This document shows, in pieces, positions 205 through 42,003 of a stretch of 64,000 bases of DNA. The DNA is from Streptomyces sp. NBC_01288. GTDB lineage: Bacteria; Actinomycetota; Actinomycetes; Streptomycetales; Streptomycetaceae. The stretch spans positions 1,984,001-2,048,000 of the forward strand of contig NZ_CP108427.1 of NCBI RefSeq assembly GCF_035982055.1, read 5' to 3'. Position 1 is the first letter of the stretch. Every line of letters begins with the position of its first letter. The position numbers and the translations under genes were made by a program. The notes under the pieces were generated by a model that saw only the letters and a program-made list of their open reading frames with translations, searched no databases and was not told the DNA's origin.

Positions 205-1320
205 TCAGCCGCCCAGTTCCTGATGCCGGGCCGCCAGCGTCGCCGCGCCCTGCTCCGTCAGCGTCCCGAACAACCGCAGCCGCGAGATCCCACCGTCGGG
301 ATAGATGTCCACGCGCGCGTGCGTCCCGATCGCCGGAGTGGGGAGCACGAAGCGGTGGTTCGTGTCGGGCTGGAGGCGGGTGCGCGGAAGGATCTCGGTC
401 CAGTCGCCGGTCTCGCCGTCCCGTACCGATACCGACGCCCAGCCCGCGCTGTTGCCCTTCAGGTACGCCGTGTCGATCTCCACGGCGCGGATCTGGGACT
501 GCGCTGCCAGGCGGTAGCGGATCCAGTCGTTGCCCTGGTCGCGGCGGCGGCGGGTTTCCCAGCCGTCGTCCATCTTGCGGGAGCGGCCGGGCTGGATGGT
601 GTTGCTCGCGGGTGAGTAGAAGAGGTTGGAGGCGTCCTCGGCGCCGCCGCCGTTCTCCAGGGCGACCACGTCGAACGTGCCCAGCGCCGCGAGCCAGTTG
701 GGGTCGGGGACGACCTCGCCGTAGACCCGCAGGCGCGCGATGCCGCCGTCGGGGTGCTGGTTGACGCGGAGGTGGGTGAAGCGTTGTTCGGTGGATATCG
801 AGAAGCCGTTCGCCGCGTGGCCGCCGACCGGCGTGCGCGGGACAAGGGGCGTCCACTTCACGTCGTCCGAGAGGAGGTCTTCGGGGGACGGGGAGCCCAG
901 TACCGACGTGCCCTCCACCGACACCGCCTGCGGGTAGTTGCCGCGGAAGTGGGCCGTGTCGACCACGATGCCCCTGATGACGCCGGGGGCTCCGAGGCGG
1001 ACCAGCGCCCAGTCGTGATCCTCCGCCGTCGGCCAGGGGTGCTCGGCCGAGGCGCCTCGACGGCGTCGGGTCTCCCAGCCGTCCATGATCTTGCCCTTGT
1101 GCCCGAAGTGCTCGGGGTCGAACTCGGCGGGCCCGGGCACGAGGAGGTTCTCGCGCTGGGCGAAGAACTCGTCGTTGGCGGCGATGACACCGGCGCCCAA
1201 CTGCCGGTCGGCGAGGTTGGCGTACTGGGTGAAGGGGAAGTCGGCCGTGCGGTAGTCCGCGTACGGGTCACCGCCTGCGTAGGGGTTCGCGTCGCCGGTG
1301 AAATTCGGAATCGCCGTCAC
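205..1320 (-). CDS. alc: Allantoicase
   Basis: A 371-residue protein of normal allantoicase length that hydrolyses allantoate to ureidoglycolate and urea in the cytoplasm. The family's internal duplication is visible: KIMDGWETRRRR near residue 80 recurs as KMDDGWETRRRR near residue 250, each followed by a DW(I/A)xxRL-type stretch. The GTG at 1320 is preceded by an AAGG-type ribosome site at some distance. It lies just downstream of allantoinase on the same strand, but a 175-bp partial duplication of the allB tail separates them. It is probably controlled by the neighbouring IclR-type regulator. No ureidoglycolate lyase gene was seen in the window. Confidence 0.95.
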   Translation of the reverse strand: MTAIPNFTGDANPYAGGDPYADYRTADFPFTQYANLADRQLGAGVIAANDEFFAQRENLLVPGPAEFDPEHFGHKGKIMDGWETRRRRGASAEHPWPTAEDHDWALVRLGAPGVIRGIVVDTAHFRGNYPQAVSVEGTSVLGSPSPEDLLSDDVKWTPLVPRTPVGGHAANGFSISTEQRFTHLRVNQHPDGGIARLRVYGEVVPDPNWLAALGTFDVVALENGGGAEDASNLFYSPASNTIQPGRSRKMDDGWETRRRRDQGNDWIRYRLAAQSQIRAVEIDTAYLKGNSAGWASVSVRDGETGDWTEILPRTRLQPDTNHRFVLPTPAIGTHARVDIYPDGGISRLRLFGTLTEQGAATLAARHQELGG

Positions 1321-1670
1321 TGCTGGGTCTGCCTTTCGGGAGTGGGCCGCTGCGGGTGCGGGGGGGTGAATCAGGGGGTACGGATCAGGAGTTGGCCCTT
1401 CGGGTCGGTGAACTCGCCGTCCAGCACGATGCGTTCGCCGCGCAGCCGGGTCGGCTCGACGACCCTGCCGAGGGTGTTGCCGGAGTCGCCTTCACTACTG
1501 GGTCCGCCTCTCAGAACTGGGCCGCTGCGGGTGAGTGCGGGGAGCCGAATCAAGGCCGCCGGAACAGGAGTTGGCCCTTCGGTTCGGTGAACTCGCCGTC
1601 CAGCACGATGCGTTCGCCGCGCAGCCAGGTCGACTTCACGACGCCGCTGAGGGTCTTGCCGGCGTACGCC
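1319..1670. repeat. Tandem duplication spanning the allB tail, the spacer and the alc start
   Basis: Two direct copies of about 175-179 bp lie head to tail, unit A from about 1319 and unit B from about 1494. Each holds the spacer next to alc (ACTGCTGGGTCTGCC in A, ACTACTGGGTCCGCC in B) and then the last roughly 100 bp of allB. Unit B leads into the intact allB gene. Its left boundary keeps a remnant of the alc start, reading GTGAAGGCGAC on the minus strand where the true start reads GTGACGGCGAT. By eye the coding parts are about 90 percent identical. Confidence 0.85.
1371..1484 (-). pseudogene. Duplicated C-terminal fragment of allantoinase
   Basis: The minus strand encodes [20 protein letters not shown] followed by IRTP and a stop. 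The true allB C-terminus reads [20 protein letters not shown] followed by FRRP. About 35 residues of the allB end are therefore repeated beyond the real stop codon. The frame stays open through the spacer to an ATG at 1553, giving a possible 60-residue product with no recognisable start signal. It is most simply a relic of the tandem duplication. Expression is not excluded. Confidence 0.8.
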
Positions 1671-2917
1671 GTGACGCGGTTGCGGTGCTGGAGGGCCGCC
1701 GGGTCGACGGTGAACGTCTCGTCGGGGGCGAGGACCGCGAAGTCGGCGTCGCGGCCCGCCTCGATGGCGCCCTTCTGGTCAAGTCCCGCCAGCTCGGCCG
1801 TACTTGAGGACATCCAGCGGACCACGTCGGCCAGGTCGTGGCCCCGCTTGCGCGCCTCCGTCCACACCGCCGCGAGGCTCAACTGGAGGCCGGAGATGCC
1901 ACCCCAGGCCGTGGCGAAGTCGTCGGTCTTCAGGTCGGCCGTCGATGGTGAGTGGTCCGTGACGACGCAGTCGATCGTGCCGTCGGCCAGCGCCTGCCAA
2001 AGGAGGTCCTGGTTGGCGGACTCGCGGATCGGCGGGCAGCACTTGAACTCGCTTGCGCCGTCCGGGACTTCCTCCGCCGTGAGGGTGAGGTAGTGGGGGC
2101 ACGTCTCCACCGTGATGCGGACGCCCTCTGCCTTGGCGGCGGCGATGAGCGGGAGCGCGTCGGACGAGGACAGGTGCAGCACGTGCACGCGTGCGTTGAG
2201 GCGCTTCGCCTGCGCGATCAGCCCCGCGATGGCCGTGTCCTCGGCGTCGCGCGGGCGGCTGGCGAGGAAGTCGGCGTACTTGGGACCGCCCTGCTGCGGG
2301 GCCGCTTCGAGGTGGTGCGGGTCCTCCGCGTGGACGATGAGCAGGCCGTCGAAACCGGCGATCTCGGCCAGGGACAGGGCGAGTTGGTCCTGGTCCAGGT
2401 GCGGGAACTCGTCCACGCCGGACGGGGACAGGAATGCCTTGAAGCCGAAGACGCCGGCGTCGTGCAGCGGGCGCAGGTCCTTGACGTTGTCGGGCAGGGC
2501 GCCACCCCAGAAACCGACGTCCATGTGGGCCTTCTCCGCGGCGACTCGCTGCTTCGTACGGAGGTTGTCGACCGTCGTCGTCGGCGGGAGGGAGTTGAGC
2601 GGCATGTCGATGAGCGTGGTGATGCCGCCGGCCGCCGCCGCGCGCGTGGCGGTCCAGAAGCCCTCCCAGTGGGTGCGGCCGGGGTCGTTCACATGCACAT
2701 GGGTGTCGACCAGACCGGGCAGCAGGACGTCGTCGCCGAAGTCCTCGAACCGTGCCCCGGACGGGACTTGGGCGTCGTACGGGAGGACGGCCGTGATCTT
2801 TCCCCCGGCGACCGCGACCGCCGCTGCGCGTGTCCCCTCGGGAGTGATGACACGTGTGGAGCGCACCACCAGTTCAGCGTCGGACACCCGGACCCCTCTC
2901 TCTGCCGTCGTCGTCAC
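1550..2917 (-). CDS. allB: Allantoinase
   Basis: A 455-residue cyclic amidohydrolase that opens allantoin to allantoate. Metal-binding elements are visible: [12 protein letters not shown] near residue 75, HAED near 195, the H of TCPHYL near 275 and VTDHSPST near 325. A GTG start at 2917 is used, facing the divergent allR gene across about 270 bp that hold several palindromic operators. The gene precedes alc on the same strand, so substrate flow follows gene order. Repression by AllR, relieved by an allantoin or glyoxylate signal, is inferred from the known Streptomyces system and from the operator sites. Confidence 0.95.
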
Positions 2918-22620: not shown

Positions 22621-23132
22621 CATCCCCCACGTCCGCGCGCCCACGCTTCAACGTCGACCAGCGCCTCCGCCAGTGCGTCTGACCGCCCCGCGCCAGCACG
22701 CCTCCGCCCGCGTCACGCCCCGGCCGGCCCCACGCCTCCGCCTCGCGCCCACGCCTCCGCCCGCCCCGCGTCCACGCCTCCGCCCCGCGCCTCCGCACAC
22801 GCCGCGGGCCTTCACCCTCGCTCGGACCTTCCGCACACTGCGCCCTTCACGGCCGCCTGCCCCGCGCCACTCGCCCGCCGCGCCGCACGCCGCACGCCTT
22901 CACCCTCGCTCGGACCCACGGCACGCTCCGCCCTTCACCACGCCCCGCGCCCGCGCCTCCGCTCACCCGCCGCGCCGCACACCACCGACCCTCACCCCCG
23001 CCCGGGCCGGCCGCACACTGCACCCATCACGACCGCCCGCCCCACACCTCCACTCACCCGCCGCGCCGCACATCACCGCCCCTCACACCCGCCCGGGCCG
23101 GCCGCACACTCCGCCCGCCACCCCCGCCCGAA
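22621..23132. repeat. Gene-free pyrimidine-rich region with about four 90-bp degenerate repeats
   Basis: No gene is seen. The plus strand is strongly C-rich with CGCC/CACC runs. From about 22809 a unit of roughly 90 bp recurs, marked by (T/C)TCACCC at 22809, 22898, 22991 and 23082. Each unit contains a CTC(G/A)CCCGCCGCGCCGCAC block or a relative, and the last two share GCCCGGGCCGGCCGCACACT. The region separates the convergent MFS and NAD(P)-binding genes. Confidence 0.7.
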
Positions 23133-38835: not shown

Positions 38836-39546
38836 ATGGGGCTCATGTCCGAGAGCGTGCCGGTGCGCTGTCCGGCGTGCCGAAGAGAACACGTCTACGC
38901 CGCGCCGTCGTATCCCTGTGTGTGCGGGGCCCCTGTCGCCCCGCCGCTGGACCAGCGCGGCGTGGCGACCGTCGTGAGTCACCGAGTGTGGGACGAGGAC
39001 TGGATCGCGGTCCGCTGCGCGGCCTGCGGCCGGCTCGACGAGTGGCCGTACCCGGAGCTGGGCTGCCCGTGCGGGACCCTGCTGCGGATACCGGTCGCGG
39101 GCGCGGAACCGACGTCGGAACCCGCCGCGAGGACCACGAAGGTCGGCGGCGCCGAGGTCGAGGGCCGCCCCGCCTTCCAGCCCGTCACGATCCGCACCGC
39201 GCGCGACGCGGTCACCGCCGCCGCGCTCTACCTCCGCTGGCTCGGCTACCGGGACATCCGCCGCGCCGACCAGCGACCCCCGTCCGGCATCGGCCTCGCC
39301 GCCCGCGGCATCCTGGCCCAGGTCGACCCGACCGTACGGCCCGCCTCACTGCGCGACGTGGAATGCCTGTGGCTGACGGCCATGACGGAGTCCACGGAGT
39401 GTGTCTACTTCTCGCTCGCCGGTTACGCCGACGACGCCCGCGCCCGCGCGGACGCCCTCCGAGTCCCCCTGTTCGTCCTCGACCTCACGGGCACACCACA
39501 GCCGGTGAACGACCTGGCGGATCAACTGGACGCGGCGGGGAGTTAG
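38836..39546 (+). CDS. Zinc-ribbon hypothetical protein
   Basis: 236 residues. Two zinc-ribbon-like Cys sets are visible: CPACRREHVYAAPSYPCVCG near residue 12 and CAACGRLDEWPYPELGCPCG near 60. The second half (ARDAVTAAALYLRWLGYRDIRRAD, CVYFSLAGYADDARARADALRVPLFVLDLTG) looks like an Mrr/restriction-endonuclease-like fold, a tentative reading. A role in nucleic-acid processing is inferred. Degenerate copies of its last about 100 bp follow downstream. Confidence 0.75.
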   Translation: MGLMSESVPVRCPACRREHVYAAPSYPCVCGAPVAPPLDQRGVATVVSHRVWDEDWIAVRCAACGRLDEWPYPELGCPCGTLLRIPVAGAEPTSEPAARTTKVGGAEVEGRPAFQPVTIRTARDAVTAAALYLRWLGYRDIRRADQRPPSGIGLAARGILAQVDPTVRPASLRDVECLWLTAMTESTECVYFSLAGYADDARARADALRVPLFVLDLTGTPQPVNDLADQLDAAGS

Positions 39547-40371
39547 TTGGGCGGGCGGGGTCGGTTCGCGGCGACCACGGCCGGTTCGTGACGGCAGATG
39601 CCTGGCAGCGGGCGGCGGACCACTGCCTGACGGTACGGCGAGGAAGCACCCCAAGTCGCCGACCTCACCGCAGACCGTCCCACTCGACCCCACGGACACA
39701 CCCCAGCCGGCGAGTGGCCCGGCCTGCCAACTCAAAGCAGCCGGGAGTTAGTTGAGCGGTCGCAGCCGGTTCGCGACGACTGACGCCGGGCGACGCGCAG
39801 CGGGCGACTGCCGGACCGCTGGACGAAGGCGCGGGCCCCCGGGAGGCCGTCCGCCGACGGCGACGTGCGGCTGCGTCCGCAGCTGCGGGACATTGTCCCA
39901 AGGCCGGGCCGTACATCGCAGGCCTCGCCGCAGGCCGCCCCATTCGACCTCACCGGCACACTCCGGCCGGTGAGCGGCCTGGCCAACCAACTCGACTCAG
40001 CGGAGGGCTAGTTGAGCGGCCGGGGTCGGTTCGCGACGACAGGCGCCGGGCCATGGGCAACGGGCAGCGGGCAGCTACCGGGCTGCGGGACATTGCCACG
40101 AGGCCGCGCCCCAAGCCGCAGGCCCGCCGGACTCGCCGGAGCCGCCGTAGCCGCCGCCAACCGTCCCGCCAGATGCATCTCAGGCCGCCGTACGCAGCCA
40201 CGCAGCGAGTCACGGCAGGCCCGCCGGGTACCAGCACCCCACGCCCCAACGCCCCGTACACGCCCCCGACAGACCGGCCACCCAAGTCACCCGACAACAC
40301 TCCGGCAACCCAGCACCCCGGCCCACCACGACGCCCTCAGACACCCACCCGCACCCGAGGACTCCCCCACC
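39547..40371 (+). repeat. Gene-free 825 bp with two decayed copies of the upstream gene's tail
   Basis: The real gene ends LDLTGTPQPVNDLADQLDAA, then GS and stop (tail from 39478). At about 39683 the DNA reads LDPTDTPQPASGPACQLKAAGS then stop (TAG at 39749-39751). At about 39943 it reads FDLTGTLRPVSGLANQLDSAEG then stop. Each copy is followed by (G)TTGxGCGGxCGxxGxCGGTTCGCG. Spacings are 205 and 260 bp. Only fragments are present; no complete gene was recognised in this stretch or in 40080-40371. Confidence 0.8.
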
Positions 40372-42003
40372 TCACCGCCCCCGAACGGCCCGCTCCCGCA
40401 GCTCGATCTTCCGTACCTTCCCCGACACCGTCATCGGAAAGGCATCCATGATCTGGAGCAGACTCGGAATCTTGTAGTGCGCCAGCCTTCCCTCGCAGAA
40501 CCCCCGCAGCTCCTCCAGGGTCAGCGGGTCCGCCGGATCCCTCGGGATCACGCACGCCAGCACCTCCTCCCCGTAGCGCTCGTGCGGCACCCCCACCACC
40601 TGGACGTCCGCGATCTTCGGGTGGGTGTAGAGGAACTCCTCGATCTCGCGCGGGTAGATGTTCTCGCCGCCCCGGATGATCATGTCCTTGATGCGGCCGA
40701 CGATCTCGACGTAGCCGTCCTCGCGCATCATCGCGAGGTCACCCGTGTGCATCCAGCGGCCCGCGTCGATCGCCTCAGCCGTCTTCTCGGGCTCGTTCCA
40801 GTAGCCGAGCATCACGCTGTAGCCGCGGGTGCACAACTCGCCTGCCGTGCCCCGGGGTTGGGTCACACCCGTCGCCGGGTCGACGACCTTGACCTCCAGG
40901 TGCGGGAGGACGCGGCCGACCGTGCCGGTGCGGTGTTCCAGGTCGTCGTCCATCCTCGTCTGGAGCGAGACCGGGGACGTCTCCGTCATGCCGTAGCAGA
41001 TGGACACCTCCGCCATGTGCATCTCGGCGACCACCCGTTTCATCACCTCGACCGGGCAGGTCGAGCCCGCCATGATGCCGGTGCGGAGTGACGAGAGGTC
41101 GTAGGACGCGAAGTCGGGGAGGTTCAACTCCGCGATGAACATGGTCGGTACGCCGTAGAGCGATGTGCAGCGCTCCTGCTGGACCGCCTTCAGGGTCGCC
41201 GCCGGGTCGAAGGACGGGGCCGGGATCACGATGCACGCACCGTGCGAGGTGGCCGCGAGGTTGCCCATGACCATGCCGAAGCAGTGGTAGAAGGGCACCG
41301 GGATGCAGACCCGGTCCTGCTCGCTGTAGGCGATCAACTCACCGACGAAATAACCGTTGTTGAGGATGTTGTGGTGGGAGAGAGTGGCGCCCTTGGGGAA
41401 GCCCGTCGTACCCGAGGTGTACTGGATGTTGATGGGGTCGTCGCAGGACAACTCGGCCTCGCGGGACCGCAGTTCCTCCGCACGGTCGGCCGCGCCCCGG
41501 GCTGCCATCGCGTCCCAGCTCGGATCGCCGATGTACACCGTCTCCCGCAACTGCGGGCACTTGGACCGGACTTGCTCGACCATCGCTCGGTAGTCGCTGC
41601 TCTTGTGGCCGGCCGAGGCGAACAGGACCGAGATCCCCGCCTGGTTGAGGACGAACTCGACCTCGTGGGTCCGGTACGCCGGGTTGATGTTCACCATGAC
41701 CGCGCCGATGCGGGCGGTGGCGTACTGAACGAGCACCCACTCGGGGCAGTTGATCGCCCAGATCCCCACCCGGTCACCCTTGGCGACCCCGCTCGCGAGC
41801 AGCGCGTACGCCAACTGGTCGACATCGGAGGCGAATTGGCCGTAGGTCCAGCGCCGCCCGGACGGGACGTCGACGAGCGCCTCGCGGTCGGGCCACGCGG
41901 CGACCGCCCGGTCGAGGTTCGCCCCGATGGTGTCGCCGAGGAGTGAAGTCCCGCTGGTTCCATGGCTGTACGAGTTCATCGGCGCGTTCGACTGCGAGTT
42001 CAT
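40372..42003 (-). CDS. AMP-forming acyl-CoA synthetase
   Basis: 543 residues. [20 protein letters not shown] (about residues 188-207) is the AMP-binding P-loop, [15 protein letters not shown] motif A5, [23 protein letters not shown] motif A8, and [12 protein letters not shown] carries the catalytic Lys. Similar to medium/long-chain fatty acyl-CoA ligases. Its ATG overlaps the stop of the preceding ligase gene (ATGA), so the two are coupled. Confidence 0.93.

Follow-up and report, generated by a model that had tools for sequence, protein, structure and literature searches.

A decayed tandem duplication of a gene end in Streptomyces sp. NBC_01288

Introduction

Why should the end of a bacterial gene be found again, twice, in the noncoding DNA that follows it? 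This question is raised by a locus in the genome of Streptomyces sp. NBC_01288, a single contig (C1) of 10.56 Mb, of which we analyzed positions 1984001 to 2048000; this stretch of 64,000 nucleotides is referred to here as the window. The protein encoded by the gene matched no Pfam or NCBIfam family above the cutoff, and "zinc-ribbon" is a label given to it by an earlier reader of the sequence; we call the gene the zinc gene below. A gap of 825 bp separates its end from a convergent acyl coenzyme A (acyl-CoA) synthetase gene, and a simple codon model called no gene within this gap. The same model places the start of the zinc gene at 38920, versus 38836 in Table 1, and the gene starts and counts of gene heads reported here are approximate.

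Results

The end of the zinc gene and its spacer are repeated in tandem

A repeat search of the window revealed one family of three 106-nt copies, consisting of the end of the zinc gene and two downstream echoes with 75% (39684) and 79% (39944) identity to it (Table 1). The echoes start 205 and 465 nt after the start of the source copy, giving start-to-start spacings of 205 and then 260, and they bear out the original prediction of two decayed tail copies at these spacings. That prediction was to be abandoned if the similarity proved no better than that of shuffled sequence. We made 1,000 dinucleotide shuffles of the DNA downstream of the gene; the best match among them was 56/106 (mean, 46.3; standard deviation, 1.8), and the 79 and 84 matches observed are therefore not due to chance. 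A coincidental resemblance of GC-rich DNA, which has the high G+C content in its favor and nothing more, is thus refuted, and we put its probability at practically nil.

The gene-tail part of the copied stretch comprises 69 nt (22 codons plus the stop codon) in a BLAST alignment and 68 nt in the repeat search, and the TAG stop codon is retained in frame in both echoes. The resemblance between echoes 2 and 3 spans 150 nt and takes in sequence on the upstream side of the tail. Because this match extends beyond the tail, the repeated unit is the tail together with its spacer, in tandem, and not just the tail. The array went unreported by Tandem Repeats Finder, presumably because its copies are too diverged. 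The array nevertheless consists of adjacent, head-to-tail copies of one unit, and its copy number differs between related genomes, as does that of the arrays at allB and at loci L170, L233, and L169 described below; both properties are those of a tandem duplication. We conclude that the zinc array is a real, decayed tandem duplication of a gene end, ordinary in kind and one among many local repeats of this genome.

TABLE 1 Positions in the window of the two gene-tail arrays and the genes that they adjoin
Feature	Position	Strand	Basis
Zinc gene (236-amino-acid protein, CxxC pairs), source of the repeat by its 3' end	38836..39546	+	
Source copy: last 68 nt of the gene with TAG plus 38 nt beyond	39479..39584	+	Repeat search
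Echo 2: 79/106 identical, TAG kept	39684..39789	+	Repeat search, ungapped match
Echo 3: 84/106 identical, TAG kept	39944..40049	+	Repeat search, ungapped match
Longer unit common to echoes 2 and 3 (78%), first copy	39656..39805	+	Repeat search
Longer unit common to echoes 2 and 3 (78%), second copy	39916..40065	+	Repeat search
AMP-binding acyl-CoA synthetase gene, convergent, closing the intergenic gap	40372..42003	-	
Allantoicase gene, adjoining AllB	205-1320	-	
Spare copy of the allB tail plus retained spacer next to allantoicase	1306..1490	-	
Intact allB tail plus decayed spare spacer	1481..1670	-	
Allantoinase AllB gene, with the array at its 3' end	1550-2887	-	

Decay of the allB array is confined to its redundant interior

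The end of allB had been put forward as a second gene-tail duplication in the window, and both cases are real; the two allB copies are 83% identical. In eight of nine relatives, a single unit of 183 to 201 nt separates AllB from allantoicase, compared with 365 nt, or two units, in the window. The spacer of P3 measures 290 nt and contains a separate partial tandem repeat (L250:1385-1601; offset, 101; 76%). The two window copies were aligned with the single units of these eight relatives, with P3 left out. All 29 differences between the window copies fell in the redundant interior of the array, 20 in the spare spacer and 9 in the spare tail, and the halves attached to the real genes are conserved, which is the pattern that loss of constraint after a duplication predicts. 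The ends of the ancestral unit share CGG..CGCC, a weak hint of a mechanism acting through short matches.

The window contains a third intergenic tandem array, at 22762-23130 (74%; offset, 179), which lies in a convergent gap and touches no gene tail. Tandem Repeats Finder assigns it a period of 91 and 3.6 copies.

Most close relatives have no echoes at the zinc locus

To compare the locus across species, we fetched 80 loci of 4 to 7 kb each from named Streptomyces genomes, with one genome per species in the collection searched; the relatives found to have the zinc locus were all Streptomyces. A match to the acyl-CoA synthetase lies downstream of the zinc gene in 71 of the 80 loci, at 9 to 2,835 bp, with a few of the 71 being weak (31 to 35% identity) or partial matches that may not be the orthologue. 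Among the eight closest relatives, the gap measures 279 bp in F-525, 60 bp in P3, 42 bp in xylophagus, 1148 bp in MBT65, 481 bp in hokutonensis, 272 bp in MBT53, 30 bp in STR69, and 458 bp in prunicolor. F-525, the sister genome (100/100 in the tree; 94% over the left flank), has a single tail and a single spacer, and merely 30 to 60 bp lie between the two genes in P3, xylophagus, and STR69.

Echoes were absent from six of these eight relatives, and MBT53 and hokutonensis carry their own. The single echo of MBT53 is 90% like its own gene tail and is followed by a junction sequence that directly adjoins the gene tail in STR69, indicating that STR69 represents the one-copy state. One clear and one weak echo are present in hokutonensis, and S. 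fulvoviolaceus, which lies outside the nearest group, has a repeat that spans the end of the gene (81%). In a tree of the copies, window echoes 2 and 3 paired with each other (97/92), apart from the group of MBT53 and hokutonensis echoes, which suggests that the echoes of the window and those of the two relatives may have arisen in independent events.

We also compared topologies by AU tests, with the weak hokutonensis echo omitted. A single origin of the echoes of all species was not rejected (P = 0.30; fewer than 90 sites). Window echo 3 and the MBT53 echo have in common a state found in no gene tail at two sites in the tail and two just upstream of it; by a rough estimate, parallel change would give about one such shared site. 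A clade of the window gene, its echoes, and the F-525 and xylophagus tails was rejected (P = 0.012; fewer than 90 sites). This rejection speaks against a simple lineage-specific origin at the zinc locus, and we give it little weight because the gene tails alone also depart from the well-supported species tree.

At 9 of the 80 loci, a local repeat scoring 60 bits or more lies somewhere in the fetched DNA; it includes or repeats the gene tail at 3, and one of the nine, at L103, lies far upstream of the zinc gene. Two more of the nine are very long local repeats downstream of the zinc gene, in two species, at L106:3790-6678 (78% over about 2.6 kb; offset, 297) and L124:3828-5249 (72% over about 1.1 kb; offset, 294).

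The gap itself looks permissive, with GNAT, a methyltransferase, or almost nothing in relatives. Its content differs by species: an open reading frame (ORF) for a methyltransferase is found in MBT65 (L054:3776-4807), a GNAT acetyltransferase gene lies within 1.6 kb downstream of the zinc gene in 30 of the 80 loci, and proteins with a NADAR domain are encoded in the gap region of L079, L083, and L091. We rejected a remnant of a GNAT gene as an origin of the repeats, as tblastn gave no match in the gap of the window genome or of five relatives.

Local repeats are common in this genome and may favor gene ends

How often such arrays arise was estimated from 100 evenly spaced 20-kb stretches plus the window, a sample of 2.064 Mb with 1,729 called genes. 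We counted clusters of local direct repeats with at least one mostly noncoding copy, leaving out high-scoring segment pairs below 60 bits, at offsets above 700 bp, or mostly coding in both copies. There were 35 such clusters in the 2.064 Mb, and no repeat of cluster score appeared in 50 stretches that had been shuffled by blocks of two bases. For a second count we removed seven clusters with sequence in common with another cluster, and the 28 that remained are locus specific. Eight of the 28 take in 50 nt or more of a gene tail, giving a rough rate of 28 locus-specific intergenic clusters per 2.06 Mb, 8 of them with a gene tail. The self-alignment for repeats of 3' ends that had been proposed as a check thus yielded, in this 2.06-Mb sample, allB and six further clusters in addition to the zinc array.

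Convergent gaps contain 9 of the 28 locus-specific clusters, more than expected from their 15.6% share of intergenic base pairs (P = 0.03), and divergent gaps contain 2, fewer than expected from a share of 25.9% (P = 0.03). No cluster includes 50 nt or more of a gene head; with a limit of 10 nt, the counts among the 28 are 11 for tails and 3 for heads. When 106-nt tails and heads were compared at fixed length with 787 nt of neighboring DNA, at least 60/106 matches were found downstream of 12 of 1,668 tails and upstream of 6 of 1,573 heads (P = 0.24). The preference of the repeats for gene tails is therefore suggestive, not firm, and the 20 locus-specific clusters without 50 nt of gene tail indicate that the tail is uninvolved in most arrays. 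The same pipeline found two clusters in 400 kb of genome G068, neither with a gene tail; the density is lower there, not significantly so (P = 0.08 by base pairs and 0.11 by intergenic base pairs).

The units show no sign of function or mobility

The original prediction had raised the possibility that the echoes act as terminators or binding sites, and had named an unrecognized mobile tail unit as a candidate mechanism. A functional role found no support: terminator-like sites (a GC-rich hairpin plus a T run) numbered 0, no promoter-like site was found, and z-scores for folding relative to shuffles ranged from -1.29 (echo 3) to 0.05. The two Rfam matches listed had scores of 15.7 bits (gathering score, 37) and 15.1 bits (gathering score, 45), neither of them near the threshold. 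Unusual folding as a cause of the repeats was rejected as well, with mean energies per base of -0.397 for 35 units and -0.385 for 210 control segments and a higher GC content in the units.

Nor is there evidence for a mobile unit. Copies at unrelated places in the genome, the mark of a MITE, a REP, or a similar mobile repeat, were not found for the zinc unit; among the 40 of 139 first-look candidates that were scored, it matched solely its own place and one 46-bit match. For the allB unit, with 40 of 155 candidates scored, the one match was itself. At an E value of 1e-5, the two arrays have no sequence in common with each other or with other clusters, and no phage or plasmid matched at the same E value. 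A recombinase between displaced tails, as expected of an element that uses an attachment site, was found neither in the gap of the window genome nor, along with transposases, among ten ORF products chosen from the gaps of nine relatives, out of 14 loci with listed ORFs. Within the scope of these searches, we reject the mobile tail unit.

Dispersed intergenic families do exist in this genome. One, at L184:4279-4578 (G000:C1:3699279-3699578) and also at L205:9544, L206:15441, and L206:16118, has at least 42 matches within the genome, from 40 scored candidates out of 75 in the first look; apart from the query, four are 83 to 97% identical over about 235 to 260 nt, the members are partly tandem and partly inverted, and all matches listed lie between 3.4 and 7.5 Mb. 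A second family, at L218:5511-5802 (G000:C1:7270511-7270802) and also at L197:17143 and L177:4729, consists of a repeat of about 42 to 50 nt with at least 54 matches on both strands and across the chromosome, many of them 94 to 100% identical (40 of 266 candidates scored; more matches are likely).

Three other tail arrays date to about the split from the sister genome

For three of the six further tail arrays, those at L170, L169, and L233, we compared relatives at the same locus. A single copy was found in 8/8 informative relatives (of 9) at L170, in 9/9 relatives at L233, and in 7/9 at L169, where weak second matches occur in prunicolor (35 nt) and hokutonensis (about 60 nt; 74%). At sites where the window genome and F-525 have a derived state in common, the echoes carry that state at 14/17 sites for L170, 2/4 and 3/4 for L169, and 3/4 and 9/13 for L233. 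At sites derived in the window genome alone, the echoes of these three arrays are derived in 7/19, 4/13, 2/4, 2/7, and 1/11. This sharing of derived states indicates that the three duplications took place at about the time of the split from F-525. The zinc echoes carry the shared derived state at 1/2 and 0/2 sites and the state derived in the window genome alone at 1/3 and 1/3. The echo paired with its source in a joint tree (69/64) and in the L170 (80/76) and L169 (57/73) trees; the source paired with F-525 in the L233 tree (82/82), and neither pairing appeared in the zinc tree. Trees of echo, source, and relatives thus gave no resolution between copying before and copying after the split.

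The extent of decay was gauged against the divergence of the two genomes. At fourfold-degenerate sites, the window genome and F-525 differ at 478/3281 positions, about 0.073 per lineage; in single-copy intergenic DNA they differ at 214/2592, less than at fourfold sites. We counted changes specific to a copy at positions with the same base in the source, in F-525, and in the consensus of the remaining relatives. There were 13/58 and 10/58 in the zinc echoes, 13/132 and 9/94 at L169, 13/61 and 19/109 at L233, and 7/142 at L170. Six of the seven spare copies thus lie above 0.073, half the fourfold distance to F-525, reaching as much as three times this value. The excess may stem from codon selection acting on fourfold sites, from duplications that somewhat predate the split, or from misalignment of the decayed copies.

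Discussion

We consider it likely that the echoes are the remains of a tandem duplication of a gene end and its spacer in this Streptomyces lineage, followed by decay: a mutational scar rather than a new element. A segment of about 200 to 260 bp, starting within the gene close to its last 68 nt and extending into the intergenic spacer on the 3' side, would have been duplicated in tandem, and one spare unit was then probably duplicated again. Because the first copy keeps the gene intact, the spare copies would not be under selection and would decay by substitutions and small insertions and deletions. As for the molecular step, short chance matches may have mediated replication slippage or template switching, or there may have been unequal exchange; decay of the zinc-locus junctions has gone too far for microhomology to be read. 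Copies may later be lost by deletion, and 3' intergenic DNA may retain such events since nothing important breaks there. Of the shared mechanism originally suggested for the zinc gene and allB, slippage or a related step is what the data best fit, and the mobile unit is the part that finds no support.

The alternative that deserves the most scrutiny concerns age. If the array arose before the nearest relatives branched off and recombination between its repeats later removed it from them, the divergence of its copies would simply reflect age. The divergence of the echoes beyond the lineage estimate from fourfold sites, the scant sharing of the window/F-525 derived state by the zinc echoes, and the presence of echoes in hokutonensis and MBT53 all fit such a history, and one deletion each would suffice for loss in F-525 and xylophagus. 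Repeated parallel losses would be needed, however, to leave a single copy in every informative relative at L170 and L233 and in most at L169, and the echoes of these three arrays mostly carry the derived state of the window genome and F-525 and therefore do not greatly predate the divergence of these two genomes. We regard an older array as unlikely, though it merits consideration. A further possibility is that some tail echoes were born diverged, the duplication step being an error-prone synthesis in which the new copy differs by several percent at once; such early differences might let a copy escape collapse by recombination and become a stable scar. If true, this would explain the copy-specific changes at roughly 10 to 22% of the sites compared in six of seven spare copies, in arrays that close relatives lack, but we think it very doubtful.

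Two other readings were considered. The echoes could be footprints of an integrative element with its attachment site in the 3' end of the gene, whose insertions supply diverged tails that are left displaced when the element is deleted. The copies do begin inside the gene end and include the stop codon, and the gap has acquired genes in relatives, such as the methyltransferase and GNAT genes mentioned above. Yet the spacer is repeated along with the tail, which accretion at att sites does not predict, and, with no recombinase or transposase among the ORF products chosen from relatives, no match to a phage or plasmid, and no sequence common to the zinc and allB arrays, we judge this explanation quite improbable. 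The echoes might instead be functional, serving between the two convergent genes as repeats of a terminator, a binding site, or a small RNA. Retention of the in-frame TAG in both and the slightly better folding of echo 3 than of its shuffles speak for such a role, but neither the terminator search nor Rfam gave a candidate, and six of the eight nearest relatives do without echoes, three of them with hardly any DNA between the two genes; a function is accordingly most improbable.

On the reading that we favor, duplication followed by decay, the two gene-tail echoes in one window are accounted for by a single ordinary process. Scars of this kind can mislead annotation through spurious short ORFs and false regulatory repeats. 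They also constitute roughly dated duplications with which the decay of unconstrained DNA in Streptomyces can be measured, and, if the modest excess divergence is real, it would become testable whether error-prone synthesis gives rise to tandem duplications.

Displacement of a gene tail by integrative elements likewise places a second, diverged gene end downstream of a gene. The zinc locus differs in that no element or integrase was found among the ten ORF products and in that the spacer is repeated with the tail. The dispersed families at L184 and L218 resemble the zinc and allB arrays in being intergenic and partly tandem, but the zinc and allB units have no sequence in common with them and, against at least 42 and at least 54 matches for the families, occur at their own place apart from the 46-bit match (40 of 139 and 40 of 155 candidates scored). 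Among the titles listed by a literature search, none concerned gene-tail duplication in Streptomyces.

Bacterial minisatellites, or variable-number tandem repeat (VNTR) loci, are similar in that they are intergenic units arranged head to tail, with a copy number that varies between related genomes. According to PMC2884548, minisatellites are defined by at least 90% identity between units; with two to three units of 75 to 79% identity, the zinc array falls below this definition and, on those terms, is a degenerate tandem array rather than a minisatellite in the strict sense. In addition, the units described here differ from locus to locus, and the variation is between species. PMC2884548 also describes small variable segments ("microdiversity") in bacterial genomes, found by aligning strains within three bacterial species, with 23 to 48% of such loci being intergenic. 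Those segments are like the echoes in being short stretches present in some genomes and missing in others, whereas here species are compared, and the segment consists of a decayed copy of the gene end next to it.
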